The position numbers and the translations under genes are program-made. A stretch of DNA of 64,000 bases from Clostridium massiliamazoniense (GTDB taxonomy: Bacteria > Bacillota > Clostridia > Clostridiales > Clostridiaceae). The first letter of the stretch is position 1, and every line of letters starts with the position of its first letter. Below the pieces are notes generated by a model. That model saw only the letters and a program-made list of their open reading frames with translations. It ran no database searches and was not told where the DNA came from. The stretch is taken from contig NZ_LN879468.1 in assembly GCF_001403635.1 (NCBI RefSeq), forward strand, positions 1,821,501-1,885,500, read 5' to 3'. Below, piece after piece: positions 8,427 to 63,066 of this stretch.

Positions 8427-9473
8427 TTGAAAGATATTAAACAAGTATTTCAAATAGCCACTATCTTCATAGGAACAATAGTTGGGGCTGGTCTTGCTTC
8501 TGGAAAGGAAATTACTCAATTTTTCACTGTTTATGGCTTAAGAAGTGTATTCGGAATAATTTTTACTGGCTTATTTTATATTCTACTATGTTCTGTAATA
8601 TCAAAAATTAGTATAGAAAATAACCTACATTCCTATGGTGAAATGATGTCCACCGTTAGCCCTTTTTTAGGGAAATTTATAGGTTTAATAACTACACTAT
8701 ATCTAGTTTCTAGTGCTTCTATTATTTTAGCTGGTAGTGGTGCTTTAATTAATCAATTTTTTGGAATTCCTAAAATAGTTGGTACCTTAATTATGGCATT
8801 TATAGCAATTCTCATACTTTTTAGAGAAACCAATGGACTTGTTGAAATAAATGCTGTAATAGTTCCAGCATTAACTATTACAATCATTATAATAACTTTA
8901 CTTTATATATTTTTTTCAGGCAATTCCTTAAACATAAGCAACCTTTTATCAATTCCACCTAAAAAAGAAAATGGTTGGGTTATTTCTACAATACTCTATG
9001 CTGGGTATAACATTTTATGCTGTAGTGGTGTAATTGTTCCCATTAGTACAAAATACAAAAGTAAAAAAACTATGCTTAAAGGTATAGCCCTTGGTGCCAC
9101 TATATTAACTTTAATTTGTATTGCTATAAATCTTATGCTTACAGCTAATCAGCCATATATATATGAATATGAAATTCCATTATTATATATTGCTAATAGA
9201 TTTGGAAAACCTGTTCAACTCTTACTTATGGTTATTATTTTAGCTGAAATGTTTTCTACAGAAGTATCTGATATTTTCTCCATAAGTCAAACTTTAAAAC
9301 AAGTCTTTAATATAAAGTTTAAAACAGGAATATTTTTAGTTATGGCTATAGCTTTACCTATTTCTCAAATAGGTTTTTCAAACTTAATAGAAGTTCTCTA
9401 TCCTTTCTTTGGACTAATGAGCTTACTATTTGTATTTCAATGTCTACGATACTTCTTTAAAAATTGCAAATAA
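8427..9473 (+). CDS. YkvI family membrane transporter
   Basis: 348 residues with about ten hydrophobic segments. The N-terminus IATIFIGTIVGAGLASGKEI is the conserved first helix of the YkvI/COG3949 family, distantly related to amino-acid transporters; the substrate is unknown. The reading frame is closed by a stop at 8415, so TTG at 8427 is the only sensible start and agrees with the family N-terminus. That start has no ribosome binding site next to it; the nearest is stranded upstream (8303-8312). The protein itself appears complete. It is convergent with sleC, with palindromic element copy A between them. Confidence 0.8.
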   Translation: MKDIKQVFQIATIFIGTIVGAGLASGKEITQFFTVYGLRSVFGIIFTGLFYILLCSVISKISIENNLHSYGEMMSTVSPFLGKFIGLITTLYLVSSASIILAGSGALINQFFGIPKIVGTLIMAFIAILILFRETNGLVEINAVIVPALTITIIIITLLYIFFSGNSLNISNLLSIPPKKENGWVISTILYAGYNILCCSGVIVPISTKYKSKKTMLKGIALGATILTLICIAINLMLTANQPYIYEYEIPLLYIANRFGKPVQLLLMVIILAEMFSTEVSDIFSISQTLKQVFNIKFKTGIFLVMAIALPISQIGFSNLIEVLYPFFGLMSLLFVFQCLRYFFKNCK

Positions 9474-9517: not shown

Positions 9518-9817
9518 GGATGTATCAAATTACAGATACCTCCTTTCTGTCTTTTATCTAGCTATATAGGTTCATCATTTATGACCACTCACCTACGTAA
9601 AGAAGCTCTAATATTTTTTCTACAACAGTTTCTAAAATTTCCAAACTCACTTTGTTCAAACAGTGGAAATTTTTTTACGCAACTATTGTTCAAAAATAAA
9701 GAGCTTCTAATACTAGTTCAATGGTCACAGCATTTTGTACCTATATAGCTATCTCGGCAGATGAAAAAAATACATTTATAAATGTAGACTTAATTCAGAT
9801 GCTGATTTGATACATCC
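9518..9817. repeat. Large palindromic interspersed element, copy A (inverse orientation, full length)
   Basis: Ends are GGATGTATCAAAT (9518-9530) and ATTTGATACATCC (9805-9817). Inside, nested arms pair: TAGCTATATAGG with CCTATATAGCTA, then GACCA with TGGTC, AGAAGCTCT with AGAGCTTCT, and AAATTTCC with GGAAATTT around a central loop. The left end folds into a small hairpin (GGATGTATC / GATACCTCC). Read on the minus strand it is nearly identical to copies E (46596) and G (61498). It lies between the convergent YkvI and sleC genes. Confidence 0.85.
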
Positions 9818-18777: not shown

Positions 18778-19890
18778 ATGCGTCTAGTTCCAATTGAATG
18801 TGTTCGAGAAGGATGTTATTTAGCTAAAACAATCTATGATTCAGATGGAAGAATTTTATTAAGGTGTGGTGCTAAACTTACTAACTCTTTAATTAATAGA
18901 ATTAAAGCTATAAATATTTACTCTCTTTATATTTCTGACAATTACACTCAAAAAGAAATTGATGAGATTATTTCTCCAGAATTGAAACAAAAATCAATAT
19001 TATTAGTTAAAGATGTTTTTACTACCTTTCATAAAATTTCATCAGATCCTGCATTGGCTAATAATTCAAAAAATAAATACAAACTTCTCAAAGAAAAAGA
19101 AAATTATCTACACTCATTAGAAGAATTAGCTGAAGAACTTTATGAAAACATTATATCTAACAAAAATCTTATGATAGGACTTGTTGATATAAAAACAATG
19201 GATGCCTATACTTATCAGCACTCTGTTAATGTAGCCATTATTTCTATGGTTATTGGTGTTGGCTTTAAATTATCTAAAAAAAAGCTCATCGACTTATGTA
19301 TAGGAGCTTTATTACATGATATTGGGAAAATATTTGTTGGAAAAGATATTATAAAAAAACCTGAAAAACTAACAGATGTGGAATTTGAAGCTATAAAAAA
19401 ACACCCCAAAGCTGGATATGATTATATACATAGCAATAATAGTATAAATGCTAACTGTAAAATTGTTATTTTACAACATCATGAAAAAGTTGATGGTACT
19501 GGTTATCCCCGTGGTATAAAGGGTGATGATATAAATCTTCTAGCAAAAATTGTAGCCGTGGCAGATGTATATGATGCCCTTACATCAGATAGACCTTATA
19601 AAAGGGCTATGTGTCCTAATGAAGCCTTTGAATTTATATTATCAAAAGCTGATTCAATGTTTGATTTTGAAGTAACCCAAATATTCTCTAAAGTTTTAAT
19701 ACCGTATCCTAAAGGTTCTCATGTTAAACTTAGCAATGGTGACGTTGCAAAAGTAAAGAAACTTCATCAATACTATCCTCTAAGACCATACTTAGAAATA
19801 ATTGAAAGTTTCGAAAAGAACAAAGTAGGAAAAGTATTAGACTTATCTAAAGAACTTTCAATAGTTATTTCATCTTTTGATTTTAATTAA
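18778..19890 (+). CDS. HD-GYP domain cyclic-di-GMP phosphodiesterase
   Basis: 370 residues. An N-terminal beta-rich segment of about 60 residues (DUF3391-like position) precedes the HD-GYP domain. Metal ligands are visible: His148 (YQHSV), HD at 180-181 (LLHDIGK) and HHEKVDGTGYP at 234-244, with the full GYP motif. Such proteins hydrolyse cyclic di-GMP to pGpG or GMP. No membrane helices, so it is cytosolic. The start ATG follows AGAGAGG. Palindromic element copy B lies just after its stop. Confidence 0.9.
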   Translation: MRLVPIECVREGCYLAKTIYDSDGRILLRCGAKLTNSLINRIKAINIYSLYISDNYTQKEIDEIISPELKQKSILLVKDVFTTFHKISSDPALANNSKNKYKLLKEKENYLHSLEELAEELYENIISNKNLMIGLVDIKTMDAYTYQHSVNVAIISMVIGVGFKLSKKKLIDLCIGALLHDIGKIFVGKDIIKKPEKLTDVEFEAIKKHPKAGYDYIHSNNSINANCKIVILQHHEKVDGTGYPRGIKGDDINLLAKIVAVADVYDALTSDRPYKRAMCPNEAFEFILSKADSMFDFEVTQIFSKVLIPYPKGSHVKLSNGDVAKVKKLHQYYPLRPYLEIIESFEKNKVGKVLDLSKELSIVISSFDFN

Positions 19891-19920
19891 ACTGTGAAAA
19901 AAATAAATATATATTTTCTC

Positions 19921-20134
19921 TCTGCCTTTTAGCTAGCTATATAGGTTCACCATTTGTGACCGCTCACCTACGTAAAGAAGCTCTAACATTTCTTCTCTGG
20001 CAGTTGCTAAAATTTCCAAACTCGTTTCACTCAAACAATGGAAATTTTAGCAACTTTTGATCAGAAATGAAGAGCTTCTAATTACTAGTTAAATGGTCAC
20101 TACATTCTGTACCTATATAGCTATCTCGGCAGAT
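19921..20134. repeat. Large palindromic interspersed element, copy B (inverse orientation, core only)
   Basis: Outer arms TCTGCC and TAGCTATATAGGT match ACCTATATAGCTA and GGCAGA at the other end. The GGATGTATC termini seen in other copies are missing. The inner stem reads GTTGCTAAAATTTCC / GGAAATTTTAGCAAC, 15 perfect pairs, where most copies have a different sequence pair. It lies between the convergent HD-GYP gene and the 20189 gene. Confidence 0.8.
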
Positions 20135-20188
20135 AAAATATATATCTAAATATAAACTAAGACTTAACTTAATTCATTCCCATTATCT

Positions 20189-22397: not shown

Positions 22398-22515
22398 AAA
22401 AAGACCCCCCTTTTATTTAAATTAAATCTCAATTTATAATATCCCTTAATTATATCATTTTACAAATTTTGGAACAACTTTTTATCAATGATTTTTTCAT
22501 ACAATTCAAAATGAC

Positions 22516-22585
22516 AAACCTATATAGCTAGATAAAAGGCAAAGAAAAGGCAGAAAGGATGTATCTGCAATTTGATACATCCTTT
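22516..22585. repeat. Large palindromic element, copy C (right end only), acting as carB terminator
   Basis: Only the arm AACCTATATAGCTAGATAAAAGGC and the end hairpin remain. AAAGGATGTATC pairs with GATACATCCTTT over eight bases, with A-rich and T-rich flanks; it lies 14 bases after the carB stop and forms a good terminator in either direction. Confidence 0.8.
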
Positions 22586-36995: not shown

Positions 36996-37022
36996 AATAA
37001 GGGGCTGTATAAATCAGCCCCT
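36996..37022. terminator. Short GC-rich hairpin next to element copy D
   Basis: AAGGGGCTG pairs with CAGCCCCTT over the loop TATAAAT. It sits where the left half of the palindromic element would begin in complete copies. Confidence 0.65.
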
Positions 37023-37025
37023 TAA

Positions 37026-37164
37026 CGTGAGTTTGGAAATTTTAGAAACTATTGTAGAAAAAAATATTAGAGCTCCCTTACGTAAGTGAGTGGTCACAAA
37101 TGATGAACCTATATAGCTAGATAAAATACAAAGAGGATGTATCTGTAATTTGATACATCCTCTT
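37026..37164. repeat. Large palindromic interspersed element, copy D (right half only)
   Basis: Starts in the middle of the element (GTGAGTTTGGAAATTTTAGA) and runs through AGAGCTCCCTTACGTAAGTGAG, GTGGTCAC, CCTATATAGCTAG to the end hairpin AGGATGTATC / GATACATCCT (37134-37164). The left half is missing. It lies directly after the stop of the 37201 gene and supplies its terminator. Confidence 0.8.
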
Positions 37165-46595: not shown

Positions 46596-46883
46596 GGATG
46601 TATCAAGTTGGCACACTTTGTTTTATATTGCTTTTTTTCATCTGCCGAGATAGCTATATAGGTACAAAATGCTGTGACCATTGAACTAGTACTAGAAGCT
46701 CTTTATTTTTGAACAATAGTTTCGTAAAAAATTTCCACTGTTTGAACAAAGTGAGTTTGGAAATTTTAGAAACTATTGTAGAAAAAATATTAGAGCTTCT
46801 TTACGTAGGTGAGTGGTCACAAATGATGAACCTATATAGCTAGATAAAAGGCAGAAAGGACGCATCTATAATTTGATACATCC
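46596..46883. repeat. Large palindromic interspersed element, copy E (forward orientation, full length)
   Basis: Begins GGATGTATCAAG and ends with the hairpin ATCTATAATTTGATACATCC. In order: TCTGCC, TAGCTATATAGGT, GTGACCA, AGAAGCTCT, ACAATAGTTTC, AAATTTCC, a central loop CACTGTTTGAACAAAGTG, then GGAAATTT, GAAACTATTGT, AGAGCTTCT, TGGTCAC, ACCTATATAGCTA and GGCAGA. Every arm pairs with its mirror. It lies between the convergent 46321 gene and proA. No ORF inside. Confidence 0.88.
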
Positions 46884-46892
46884 TCTTTGTCT

Positions 46893-52386: not shown

Positions 52387-52674
52387 TATGTGGTATATCA
52401 AATTACCCCATATTTTTGTATTACCATTCTGTTGAGATAGCTATTATAGGTACGAAATGCTGTGACTATTGAACTAGTAATTAGAAGCTCTTTATTTCTG
52501 ATCAAAAGTTGCGTAAAGAAATTTCCACTGTTCGAACAAAGTGAGTTTGGAAATTTTAGTAACTATTGTAGAAGAAATATTAGAGCTTCTTTACGTAGGT
52601 GAGCAGTCACAAATGGCGAACCTATATAGCTAGCTAAAAGATAAAAGGGATATATCAAAATTATTGATATATCC
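52387..52674. repeat. Large palindromic interspersed element, copy F (forward, diverged)
   Basis: Core GAGATAGCTATTATAGGTAC through AGAAGCTCT, AAATTTCC, GGAAATTT, AGAGCTTCT to ACCTATATAGCTAGC. Ends differ from other copies: the right end hairpin is GGGATATATCAA / TTGATATATCCC (52648-52674), a changed but still paired version of GGATGTATC / GATACATCC. It lies between the convergent permease and hcp genes. Confidence 0.82.
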
Positions 52675-52711
52675 CCATTTTATTTTTCTATTTTTTATCC
52701 ACAGATTCTTA

Positions 52712-60264: not shown

Positions 60265-61404
60265 TTACCTAATTATTTTAGACAATCCAAGCTGTTCTGG
60301 TCCAAATAAAAGAGCCCAATCTACCACTGATTCGAACTTCATTTTGCCCCATTTTTCTATAAATATTATACCACCTAAAATATCTTGATTTACTACACCT
60401 ATTATATTACATATTATATGCAGCTCAAATTTTCTATCATTATTTATACTAACAGGATATAAATTAACAATGCCACTTACAGAGCCCTTTACTGGTGCTT
60501 TTAACTTTCCATTTTTGTCATATAAACTATCTAAATATGCTTGTTCCTTATTAGATATATCTAATATAAATTCTGAATTTAATATTCCCACAACCACCTT
60601 AACCCTTTGATTATCTAAATAGGTAACATCAAATTTTAACTTGTTATTAAACTCTTGCCAATCAAAAATTTTCTTAAGCTCTCTATCTATATAACTATAT
60701 ATATAATAAAAATAATATCCTCCACTTCCACCTGATCTCATAGATATTAATATATCAAAATATCCATTTCCTGTGAAATCGTATAATCCAATTTTAGGTT
60801 CAAATCCATAGTTGATATCTAATTTAGTTTTTGCTTTAAAATTTCCATCAACGTCTTCTATTGTTAAAAATAATTCCTGTGCTAATTGATTTCCCTTTTC
60901 ATATTGTTCTGCAATTATACATATCTTAGAACTCTTTTCTAAGGATGTAATATTCCCTTCAGCACATCCTAAAACAATATCTTTATTTGCTAAAACTGTT
61001 CCAAGACCACTTCCTACTACACTTCCTAAATACCCCTTCTCTTTTTTATTACTATCACTATTAGTTTTAGGAACCTTTTCCCAATCTACCTTTGTTCCTT
61101 CTATCTCTATGGGCTTTTTCTTTGTTTGTATTTCCTTGCCTCCAAATAAATCTTGTCTATTAACCACAGCAAAATTGTTTCTACTTGTCATTATAGGATT
61201 ATCTAATATTTCATCACAAACTTCCTTTACGTACCATTCATTACCATCTAAACCAAGTATCATTGTATAATCCCTAGAATTAAAGGTATAATTTATAATA
61301 ATCTCCTCAGATCTATAGCCTTCATCTCTTTGCTTTATGCTCATTATACTCGAATTCCTAGGTAAAAAATTCAAAACTAAATTCTTTAATTGTATGTTAT
61401 CCAT
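60265..61404 (-). CDS. Hypothetical protein, paralog of the 61810 gene (copy 2)
   Basis: 379 residues from ATG 61404 (GAGGG ten bases upstream). It shares with its neighbour an N-terminal domain (NFLPRNS, YTMIL, NEWYVKEV), a low-complexity middle and a C-terminal beta-propeller-like half: GLYDFTGNGYFDILISMRSG, SGGYYFYYIYSYIDRELKKIFD and KGSVSGIVNLYPVSINN. D-x-T-x-N-G-x-x-D-I-L resembles FG-GAP/VCBS calcium loops. No signal peptide. Role unknown; a spore or surface function is only a guess. Confidence 0.7.
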   Translation of the reverse strand: MDNIQLKNLVLNFLPRNSSIMSIKQRDEGYRSEEIIINYTFNSRDYTMILGLDGNEWYVKEVCDEILDNPIMTSRNNFAVVNRQDLFGGKEIQTKKKPIEIEGTKVDWEKVPKTNSDSNKKEKGYLGSVVGSGLGTVLANKDIVLGCAEGNITSLEKSSKICIIAEQYEKGNQLAQELFLTIEDVDGNFKAKTKLDINYGFEPKIGLYDFTGNGYFDILISMRSGGSGGYYFYYIYSYIDRELKKIFDWQEFNNKLKFDVTYLDNQRVKVVVGILNSEFILDISNKEQAYLDSLYDKNGKLKAPVKGSVSGIVNLYPVSINNDRKFELHIICNIIGVVNQDILGGIIFIEKWGKMKFESVVDWALLFGPEQLGLSKIIR

Positions 61405-61497
61405 TAAATAATAACCCTCAAAATAAGTATTAATTCTATATATTATATGTTCCAAATTAATTTTGTGTAATTTTATTTTATTAAATTAAAAACAAGA

Positions 61498-61797
61498 GGA
61501 TGTATCAAATCAGCACCTTAATTTATATTACTTTCACAAATATATTTTTTTCATCTGCCGAGATAGCTATATAGGTACAAAATGCTGTGACCATTGAACT
61601 AGTATTAGAAGCTCTTTATTTTTGAACAATAGTTTCGTGAAAAAATTTCCACTGTTTGAACAAAGTGAGTTTGGAAATTTTAGAAACTGTTGTAGAAAAA
61701 ATATTAGAGCTTCTTTACGTAAGTGAGTGGTCACAAATGATGAACCTATATAGCTAGATAAAAGGCAGAAAGGATGTATCTGTAATTTGATACATCC
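61498..61797. repeat. Large palindromic interspersed element, copy G (forward, full length)
   Basis: Ends GGATGTATCAAAT (61498-61510) and ATTTGATACATCC (61785-61797) are perfect 13-bp inverted repeats; the right end also folds on itself as GGATGTATC / GATACATCC. All nested arms described for copy E are present. It lies between the two paralogous genes, right after the stop of the 61810 gene. Confidence 0.88.
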
Positions 61798-61809
61798 TCC
61801 TAAATTTTA

Positions 61810-63066
61810 TTATTGATTTATTTTTGGAATATAACTAGGTATTACAGTAAACTTAGGATTAACTTTATCTAGCCCATAATTATCTGGAGGTCCATCACCT
61901 CTTATTACTACCCTTTGTTCAAGAATTGCGAACTTATTCTTATCATTATCCCATCCTATTACATATACCAATCCTGCCACTTGGTCATCATCTGCTACAC
62001 CTAAAATATGACTTATAAAATGCAATTGGAATATTCTATTATTATTTATTGATATTGGATATAAGTTTACTATGCCACTTACTGAGCCTTTAGTTGGCTT
62101 TCTTAACTTACATCCGTCATATAATTTATTTAAATATAAAATATCTCTCTGCCTTATATCAACAAAATATTCATAATTCATTACTCCGCCACTTACTCTA
62201 ACAGCATAATTATCTAAATATTCCACGTTATAATTAACATCTCTATTAAATTGTAATGAATCAAAAATTTTAGTTAGTTTATTATCAATATATGAATAAG
62301 CATAATAAATATAGAAGCCTCCACTTTCTCCTGATTGCATTGAAATTAATATATCCTGAACTCCATTTGCAGTTAAATCAAAGAGTCCTATATTAGGATC
62401 ATAACCAAATCTGCTAAGCTTCACTTCATCTTTAAATGTTCCGTTTATAGCTCTTATAGTTAAGTATAGTTCCTTTACAGTTTTCCCATCCTTTTTACTA
62501 TCTCTTTCAACAACACAGACCTTTTCTATTCTTCCTCGTCCTGTAACATTACCATCAATACATTCTAAAACTTTATCTCCTGTCATTCCTGTATAGCCTT
62601 CTTGTGCACCCTTGTTACTTCCTATTAATTCTTCCTTTGGAACTACTTTAACAGGAGTCTTAAAAGGAGCTGTCGTATTCATATGAGGTGCTTGATTCAT
62701 ATTAGATGTCACATTTATAGGCGCTACTGCTCCCGTATTGGATGTCACATTTATAGGAGTTGTTGCCTTCAACATCTTCTTTTCACCTCTGGTTGCCTCT
62801 TCTATTTCTTCCTCCAAGGCATCTCTTATTTCTGTTCTCATTTCGCAAGGTCTCCCACCAAAGGAATCAAATATCTCCTTAATATACCACTCTCCATTTT
62901 CATTTTCTAAAATCATGGTATATTCTCCCGAACGAAAAATATACTCTACGATTACATTTTCTACTTCTTCACCTCTAAAGCCACTCTTCTCAACATCAAC
63001 ATTAACTACCTTAGAGTTCCGTGGAAGAAAGTCGTTGACAAAGTTCATAAGCTCTACGCCATTCAT
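61810..63066 (-). CDS. Hypothetical protein, paralog of the 60265 gene (copy 1)
   Basis: 418 residues. N-terminal domain NDFLPRNSKVVNVDVEKSG with YTMILENENGEWYIKEIF, a middle with two near repeats (PINVTSNTGAVA / PINVTSNMNQAP) and a C-terminal half with GLFDLTANGVQDILISMQSG, SGGFYIYYAYSYIDNKL and KGSVSGIVNLYPISINNN. FG-GAP/VCBS-like loops suggest a beta-propeller. No signal peptide or membrane helix. GAGG precedes the ATG. Not recognised as a named family. Confidence 0.7.
   Translation of the reverse strand: MNGVELMNFVNDFLPRNSKVVNVDVEKSGFRGEEVENVIVEYIFRSGEYTMILENENGEWYIKEIFDSFGGRPCEMRTEIRDALEEEIEEATRGEKKMLKATTPINVTSNTGAVAPINVTSNMNQAPHMNTTAPFKTPVKVVPKEELIGSNKGAQEGYTGMTGDKVLECIDGNVTGRGRIEKVCVVERDSKKDGKTVKELYLTIRAINGTFKDEVKLSRFGYDPNIGLFDLTANGVQDILISMQSGESGGFYIYYAYSYIDNKLTKIFDSLQFNRDVNYNVEYLDNYAVRVSGGVMNYEYFVDIRQRDILYLNKLYDGCKLRKPTKGSVSGIVNLYPISINNNRIFQLHFISHILGVADDDQVAGLVYVIGWDNDKNKFAILEQRVVIRGDGPPDNYGLDKVNPKFTVIPSYIPKINQ

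Follow-up and report, generated by a model that had tools for sequence, protein, structure and literature searches.

Integron attC sites are imperfect palindromes that lie just behind stop codons, are conserved in structure more than in sequence and are recombined as folded single strands. The EFAR repeats of Enterococcus faecalis, which we take to be probably the same as Efa-1, are said in the work of Venditti et al. (2007) to be inserted at stem-loops and to keep parts of the target stems. Bacteria are well known to harbour small palindromic mobile elements (PMC2229807), and the nearest system described in that paper is YPAL (RU-2) of Yersinia, an element of 168 bp that is not A+T-rich, has target duplications of 3-26 bp and has targets that span or adjoin dyad symmetry. 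In PMC2267715, Efa-1 is 163 bp long, and C. perfringens and C. tetani have stem-loop families of 31-93 bp, the type I families Clop-1 (93 bp, C. perfringens) and Clot-1 (74 bp, C. tetani) among them. AT-rich terminator-like stem-loops near stop codons are described as general in low-GC Firmicutes in PMC1590033.

The 64-kb stretch of Clostridium DNA analysed here (the window; G+C 28.5%) carries copies of a hairpin of approximately 250-300 bp with a conserved apical loop and conserved internal boxes, which occurs many times per genome with a strong bias to gene 3′ ends. It is like attC in being an imperfect palindrome behind stop codons whose structure is conserved over sequence; by description it differs in conserving its apex and boxes and varying in its outer arms. 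The hairpin shares with EFAR a palindromic and non-coding nature, while its length of 250-300 bp, its conserved apical loop and boxes and its family-wide occurrence set it apart by description. Like Clop-1 and Clot-1, it is a stem-loop family of Clostridium; those two are much shorter, and since the comparison is by description either may equal part of the hairpin element. The likeness to YPAL (PMC2229807) extends to palindromic form, intergenic position, the existence of filled and empty sites and perhaps targets near dyad symmetry, as at one clean site, whereas the Clostridium element is A+T-rich in the window and no duplication was seen for it, in contrast to the 168 bp and 3-26 bp duplications of YPAL. 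Rfam gave no match in the window at the gathering threshold. For 12 family loci searched at E ≤ 5, it returned tRNAs lying beyond the element; all other matches were below threshold, some of them over hairpins and including microRNA models at 26-29 bits where the threshold is 90. Literature searches of open-licence PMC texts found no paper describing the hairpin family. Both results agree with an earlier sequence-only reading of the window, in which the element was not recognised as a named family. The family appears to be large and undescribed.

All seven places that the sequence-only reading had assigned to palindrome copies were recovered when each copy was compared with the window by blastn, five of them holding full copies (A, B, E, F and G) and two truncated ones (D and C). 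With copies oriented so that the apical loop reads CTGTTTGAAC..GTGAGTTT, A and B lie on the minus strand and the other five on the plus strand. Copy A (9518..9817, −) is a full hairpin between convergent ORFs, with its terminator-like end at 9518 facing the ORF that ends at 9473. In copy B (19900..20160, −; outer limits judged from sequence), a full core stands between AT-rich outer arms of its own that are complementary to each other, and the right end points to the ORF that ends at 19890. Copy C (22509..22585, +) is the right end only, a terminator-like hairpin near the carB stop codon, and copy D (37024..37164, +) is the right half only, near the stop codon of a MupG-like gene. The remaining three are full hairpins on the plus strand: E (46596..46883) behind proA, F (52387..52674) with convergent genes on either side (permease, hydroxylamine reductase), and G (61498..61797) next to the stop of ORF 61810-63066. 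Identities by blastn were 94.7% over 300 bp for A and G, 94.7% over 264 bp for E and A, and 90.4% over 302 bp for E and G, so that the description of these three as almost identical is somewhat strong. B (80-86% identity to other copies) and F (83-87%) are diverged, as had been said. The longest ORFs within the seven copies are 21-55 aa. The ProA encoded in the window is closest to that of Clostridium mediterraneense (80%) and then C. tarantellae (75%) among the 40 loci listed. A GC-richer palindromic terminator-like sequence (GGGGCTG..CAGCCCC) at 36996-37025 adjoins the broken end of copy D.

The complete copies had been credited with 13-bp terminal inverted repeats. Copies A and G have these ends (GGATGTATCAAAT/ATTTGATACATCC) without change; in E the left one has one mismatch to GGATGTATCAAAT, F carries a variant with two mismatches, and the outer arms of B are unrelated to the 13-bp ends and yet complementary to each other. 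At the right end of A, E and G stands a small hairpin, GGATGTATC..GATACATCC, whose sequence is changed in E and which is terminator-like when read from the neighbouring gene. Both truncated copies, C and D, have lost the far side and retain the gene-facing right end with its 13-bp sequence. A search of the window for the terminal pattern with up to 2 mismatches gave 12 matches against 3.3 expected, a number reached in 0 of 100 shuffles. That a whole copy folds as one hairpin was borne out for E and G, the copies covered by shuffle-controlled folding, with z scores against dinucleotide shuffles of −10.4 (G, plus strand), −9.8 (G, minus strand) and −11.8 (E). We also built a covariance model, R1, from 22 sequences with 41 pairs; the E-values it gives are approximate, and the sequences used in training match it by construction. 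With filters off, R1 found the five full copies of the window at E ≤ 5e-21, all five being training sequences, and gave nine weaker matches (E 0.001-0.8), five on the opposite strand of full hairpins and four at other places. The modelled core spans 46677..46807 (+) in E, where it comprises the internal boxes and the apical loop CTGTTTGAACAAAGTGAGTTT, and 61590..61721 (+) in G. Its near-invariant apical signature is CTGTTTGAGCG-N-AGCGAGTTT between CGTTAAGAA and TTTAG. A second short stem-loop insert (GATTTATAGAAATC..CACATCTCAG..CTGAGATGT) is nested in the right arms of L087, L113, L129, L140 and L154.

In all seven window copies the terminator-like right end faces a stop codon at a distance of 10-45 bp (45, 31, 14, 37, 10, 38 and 13 bp for A to G). 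In G, the gene-facing hairpin of terminator type occupies 61769..61800 (−), and similar sites are present at 46855-46886 (E) and 52646-52676 (F). Between 46 and 62 kb, 14 terminator-like sites were found, compared with 4.2 ± 2.0 in shuffles, and the top five came from G, E and F. The bias extends to 128 cores, 5 of them in the window: a right-hand ORF was present for 125, and it ended toward the element in 98 of these. The ORF contexts were convergent in 71 cases, −− in 26, ++ in 17, divergent in 10 and incomplete in 4, a count in which ORFs were called by length and pair members and orthologous loci were counted separately. In genomes G098, G099 and G100, the distance from the core to the end of the right ORF is often constant, and the terminal sequence ..CATTAAAAATGTCGTAATATTT is often followed at once by the stop codon of the right gene. 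As TAG or TAA already stands at the start of the terminal repeat, the stop may have been brought by the element, or the element may have settled behind an existing stop. At G098C2:369413 the gene of the relative ends with a different stop at the same codon place, in an alignment that is not clean.

The family occurs far beyond the window, which disposes of the condition named as refuting the sequence-only reading, namely occurrence there only. With the best 16 or fewer candidates scored per genome, R1 matched 78 of 200 Clostridiaceae genomes at E ≤ 1e-6, with a best E ≤ 1e-12 in 60 of the 78. Across the phylum, 7 of 299 sampled genomes matched with weaker scores, at most 72 bits, and six loci inspected from six of these seven all had the apical motif by a loose pattern. 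The exact apical pattern was present in 8 of 398 phylum genomes, and a reversed control pattern in none of the rows. With copy G as query and the best three candidates of each genome, blastn gave matches at E ≤ 0.001, many near chance, in 30 of the 206 family genomes. The standouts were G098, G099, G100, G144 and G152, with 32, 40, 24, 9 and 8 matches, respectively, among the best 40 or fewer candidates scored. In the genus of C. mediterraneense, 0 of 7 genomes matched by blastn, and two of that genus (G004 and G005) do match the covariance model. Iterated nhmmer over related loci and the window gave 134 cores; 59 cores were found in 1,192,837 bp of three related genomes. Exact scans of genome and viral contigs for the window-type pattern gave nothing informative, nor did blastn against plasmids (window, G100, G144 and two out-of-family queries) or against phages (window and G100 queries). 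The apical pattern occurred in three viral contigs, of which L282 folds as such a hairpin, L283 does so partly and L284 does not.

In G098-G100, the stretch between the terminal repeats of a single hairpin is 249-255 bp long in 11 of 15 TIR pairs. Among 97 loci of these genomes there are also 31 inverted pairs. Each is a composite of about 790 bp, consisting of a hairpin, a middle of about 380 bp and a second hairpin; 13 composites align, with a mean column identity of 82%. Two composites, L112:563-1500 and L154:826-1504, carry a passenger ORF between the hairpins (116 aa; open frame of 155 codons).

The element has several features of bacterial MITEs, being short, non-coding, bounded by terminal inverted repeats and present in many copies. 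Eight units had an apparently empty relative: one clean, one less clean, three that are or resemble remnants and three not cleanly aligned. The cleanest difference is at G099C16:56190, where G098 and G100 both have uninterrupted flanks and lack the element. This element is shortened at both ends and lies directly after the poly-T of a terminator hairpin that we take, from its sequence, to be T-box-like; other sites are less clear. G100C4:388751 is absent from G098, less cleanly, with 136 bp of other sequence in its place. The 'empty' sites of G099C19:66587, G098C2:108700 and G098C2:154160 are or resemble core-deleted remnants of which mainly the arms are left, and those of G098C2:369413, G099C26:24747 and G099C26:34892 could not be aligned cleanly. 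In these eight occupied/empty comparisons, most of them not clean, no clean target-site duplication was found. Many insertions must be old because their sites are common to G098, G099 and G100, while seven equal-score matches in G181 and five in G018 suggest, by score alone, recent amplification. The many copies, the insertion differences with their one clean case and the equal-score matches within one genome agree with the description as a non-autonomous mobile element. No autonomous copy with matching ends was found in 1.19 Mb when terminal repeats were paired over distances of up to 6 kb, the largest paired-repeat distance being 791 bp. No transposase or recombinase was found among 10 neighbouring ORFs, 7 of which belong to other families and 3 to no family. 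The flanking ORFs 8427-9473, 60265-61455 and 61810-63066, called genes by length only, had no Pfam match.

The sequence-only reading had also offered a family of structured RNAs, which is borne out in structure alone. The stems do covary, with double changes in 36 of 41 pairs. In 104 hairpins there were 780 double-change cells, and Watson-Crick cells numbered 8383 against 7218 ± 23 in row shuffles, an excess that is weak by itself because row shuffles ignore relatedness. In 24 comparisons of orthologous loci we counted 139 double changes where about 11 were expected. Omission of five comparisons of low identity, which may be independent insertions (L104/L139 twice, L119/L133, and L086 with L157 and with G098C2:122630), left 19 comparisons with 78 double changes. 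Among the closest orthologues, the arms had 22 G-U, 23 A-C, 28 other mismatches and 9 compensated cells, so that broken pairs outnumbered compensated ones by 73 to 9 with both directions counted; this preponderance also fits ordinary compensatory selection. In order to compare the two strands, we used the 19 comparisons in both directions and only pairs predicted on both strands. The arms then showed G-U 58, A-C 59, other mismatches 108 and compensated 150. An apparent G-U bias of 108:51 in the 24 orthologous comparisons was rejected as a product of one-strand folding. Over 125 copies, G-U (581) and A-C (547) were likewise similar (Wilcoxon P 0.43). Apical stems favour G-U (18 versus 5 A-C), and the count in 13 copies of G144 is asymmetric (GU 36, AC 6). 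The equality of G-U and A-C in the arms points to pairing at the DNA level or to a need for pairing in both strands. These counts suggest that the arms are paired as DNA and that the apex has a possible separate role, which, given the G-U excesses in apical stems and G144, may be one as RNA.

In 246 kb of G144 we found 37 inverted repeats whose arms reach 30 bp or more. From these, 33 were hand-picked for examination, leaving out three with short loops (arms 32-40 bp) and one of 33 bp. Eleven have the hairpin-family core, twenty a second core by alignment, and two something else. The second core is TwoAYGGAY (RF01731) by Rfam, in 6 of 6 copies in the two stretches searched (48-57 bits; gathering threshold 43). 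It resembles the hairpin family in G144 in lying within long matched arms, often at gene ends, and differs in core sequence; by Rfam score it is a separate family. Arms in G144 are 47-133 bp long. At nine loci, one arm contains 17-42 bp of the coding 3′ end of the neighbouring gene, which is mirrored in the other arm with 0-3 mismatches. Arm-to-arm matches at these nine loci are 93-100% (e.g. 108/109, 120/121 and 92/92; worst 82/88), compared with 74-90% for the 15 longest arm matches between different loci. Of eight of the nine mirrored-end genes searched, four are over the curated NCBIfam cut-off (HydE, heavy-metal P-type ATPase, DJ-1 glyoxalase III and an SLAP-domain protein); the other four have matches that fall short of it. 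The two convergent ORFs at C20:38608 share their last 11 residues. Beside L088 the homologues of the rhomboid gene end too variably to show where the mirrored end came from. In 1.04 Mb of contigs from G098, G099 and G100 there were four such long-arm repeats, and in the window none.

The explanation we favour, which we hold to be moderately probable, is that of a non-autonomous palindromic element (EFAR/YPAL-like) that lies at gene 3′ ends and has its arms rewritten through fold-back copying of DNA. Because conservation falls on the loop and the unpaired boxes, the element would be mobilised in trans, probably as folded single-stranded or cruciform DNA. The gene-facing end would work as an intrinsic terminator, so that insertions behind stop codons would be tolerated and kept. 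During replication, a nascent strand may fold back on the hairpin and be extended on its own arm, which would re-match the arms and sometimes copy the 3′ end of the adjacent gene, inverted, onto the far side. Such copying, which we infer from a pattern in the sequence of one genome (G144), would explain why arms match each other better than they match other copies and run into unique coding sequence. A wider proposal, in which a Bacillota-wide class is mobilised in trans, recognised as folded DNA and renewed in its arms by fold-back synthesis that writes inverted host gene ends, is tentative and in our estimation rather doubtful.

An account without fold-back synthesis would have an EFAR/YPAL-like element insert into terminators or stem-loops and keep parts of the target stems as outer arms, as EFAR reportedly does. 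The sites at gene 3′ ends, one just after the T-box-like terminator, and copy B with its own outer arms argue for it, and YPAL targets span or adjoin dyad symmetry (PMC2229807). Insertion into existing stem-loops leaves the mirrored codons unexplained, however: nine G144 loci have coding 3′ ends mirrored in arms of 47-133 bp, while the 246 kb contain only three short-loop long inverted repeats that could be targets, with arms of 32-40 bp. We regard this account as unlikely. Covariation, 3′-end location, terminator-like ends and the G-U excess in apical stems and G144 would all suit a structured RNA of the 3′ UTR (a bidirectional terminator, an RNase III site or a protein-binding RNA) spread by duplication, but the equal G-U and A-C changes in the arms and the lack of an Rfam family at threshold make this quite improbable. 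A neutral, decaying MITE whose arm pairing reflects shared ancestry only would account for the truncated and core-deleted copies and for the predominance of pair-breaking changes in closest orthologues; with double changes at orthologous loci so far above chance, we consider it very improbable. If the explanation by fold-back copying is true, one of the commoner intergenic repeats of Clostridiaceae, unlisted in Rfam, shapes the 3′ ends of many genes, and its matched arms and mirrored coding ends document, in natural DNA, fold-back synthesis at palindromes, which is otherwise known chiefly through small mutations. The conserved apex would be a handle for finding the enzyme that moves the element.

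Three further ideas about the G144 arms were rejected. The arms are not wholly locus-specific, as 112 of 528 arm pairs match at E ≤ 1e-3; locus specificity is confined to the outer part that holds the gene end. Arm length is not set by the distance to the stop codon (r 0.20, P 0.16 in all 29 rows with a plus-strand left gene); an earlier r of 0.61 (P 0.0016) came from 23 rows chosen for stops near the arm end. Loss of SbcCD as the cause of the long palindromes was also rejected, since all 12 genomes have an SbcD above the curated cut-off; the SbcC model also matches all 12, in none of them above its cut-off. The TwoAYGGAY RNAs of G144 (L223-L236, e.g. L229:18043-18426 and L234:9793-10202) lie in near-perfect inverted arms of about 55-128 bp, often at gene ends, and their core had a blastn match in 1 of 200 family genomes (best four candidates each). 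Finally, at L090, L091, L092 and L101 of G144, GGGGACGGTTAACAAATAATT and its inverse flank several elements as another short palindromic repeat, which we presume may be a CGTC-tagged REP-like sequence.
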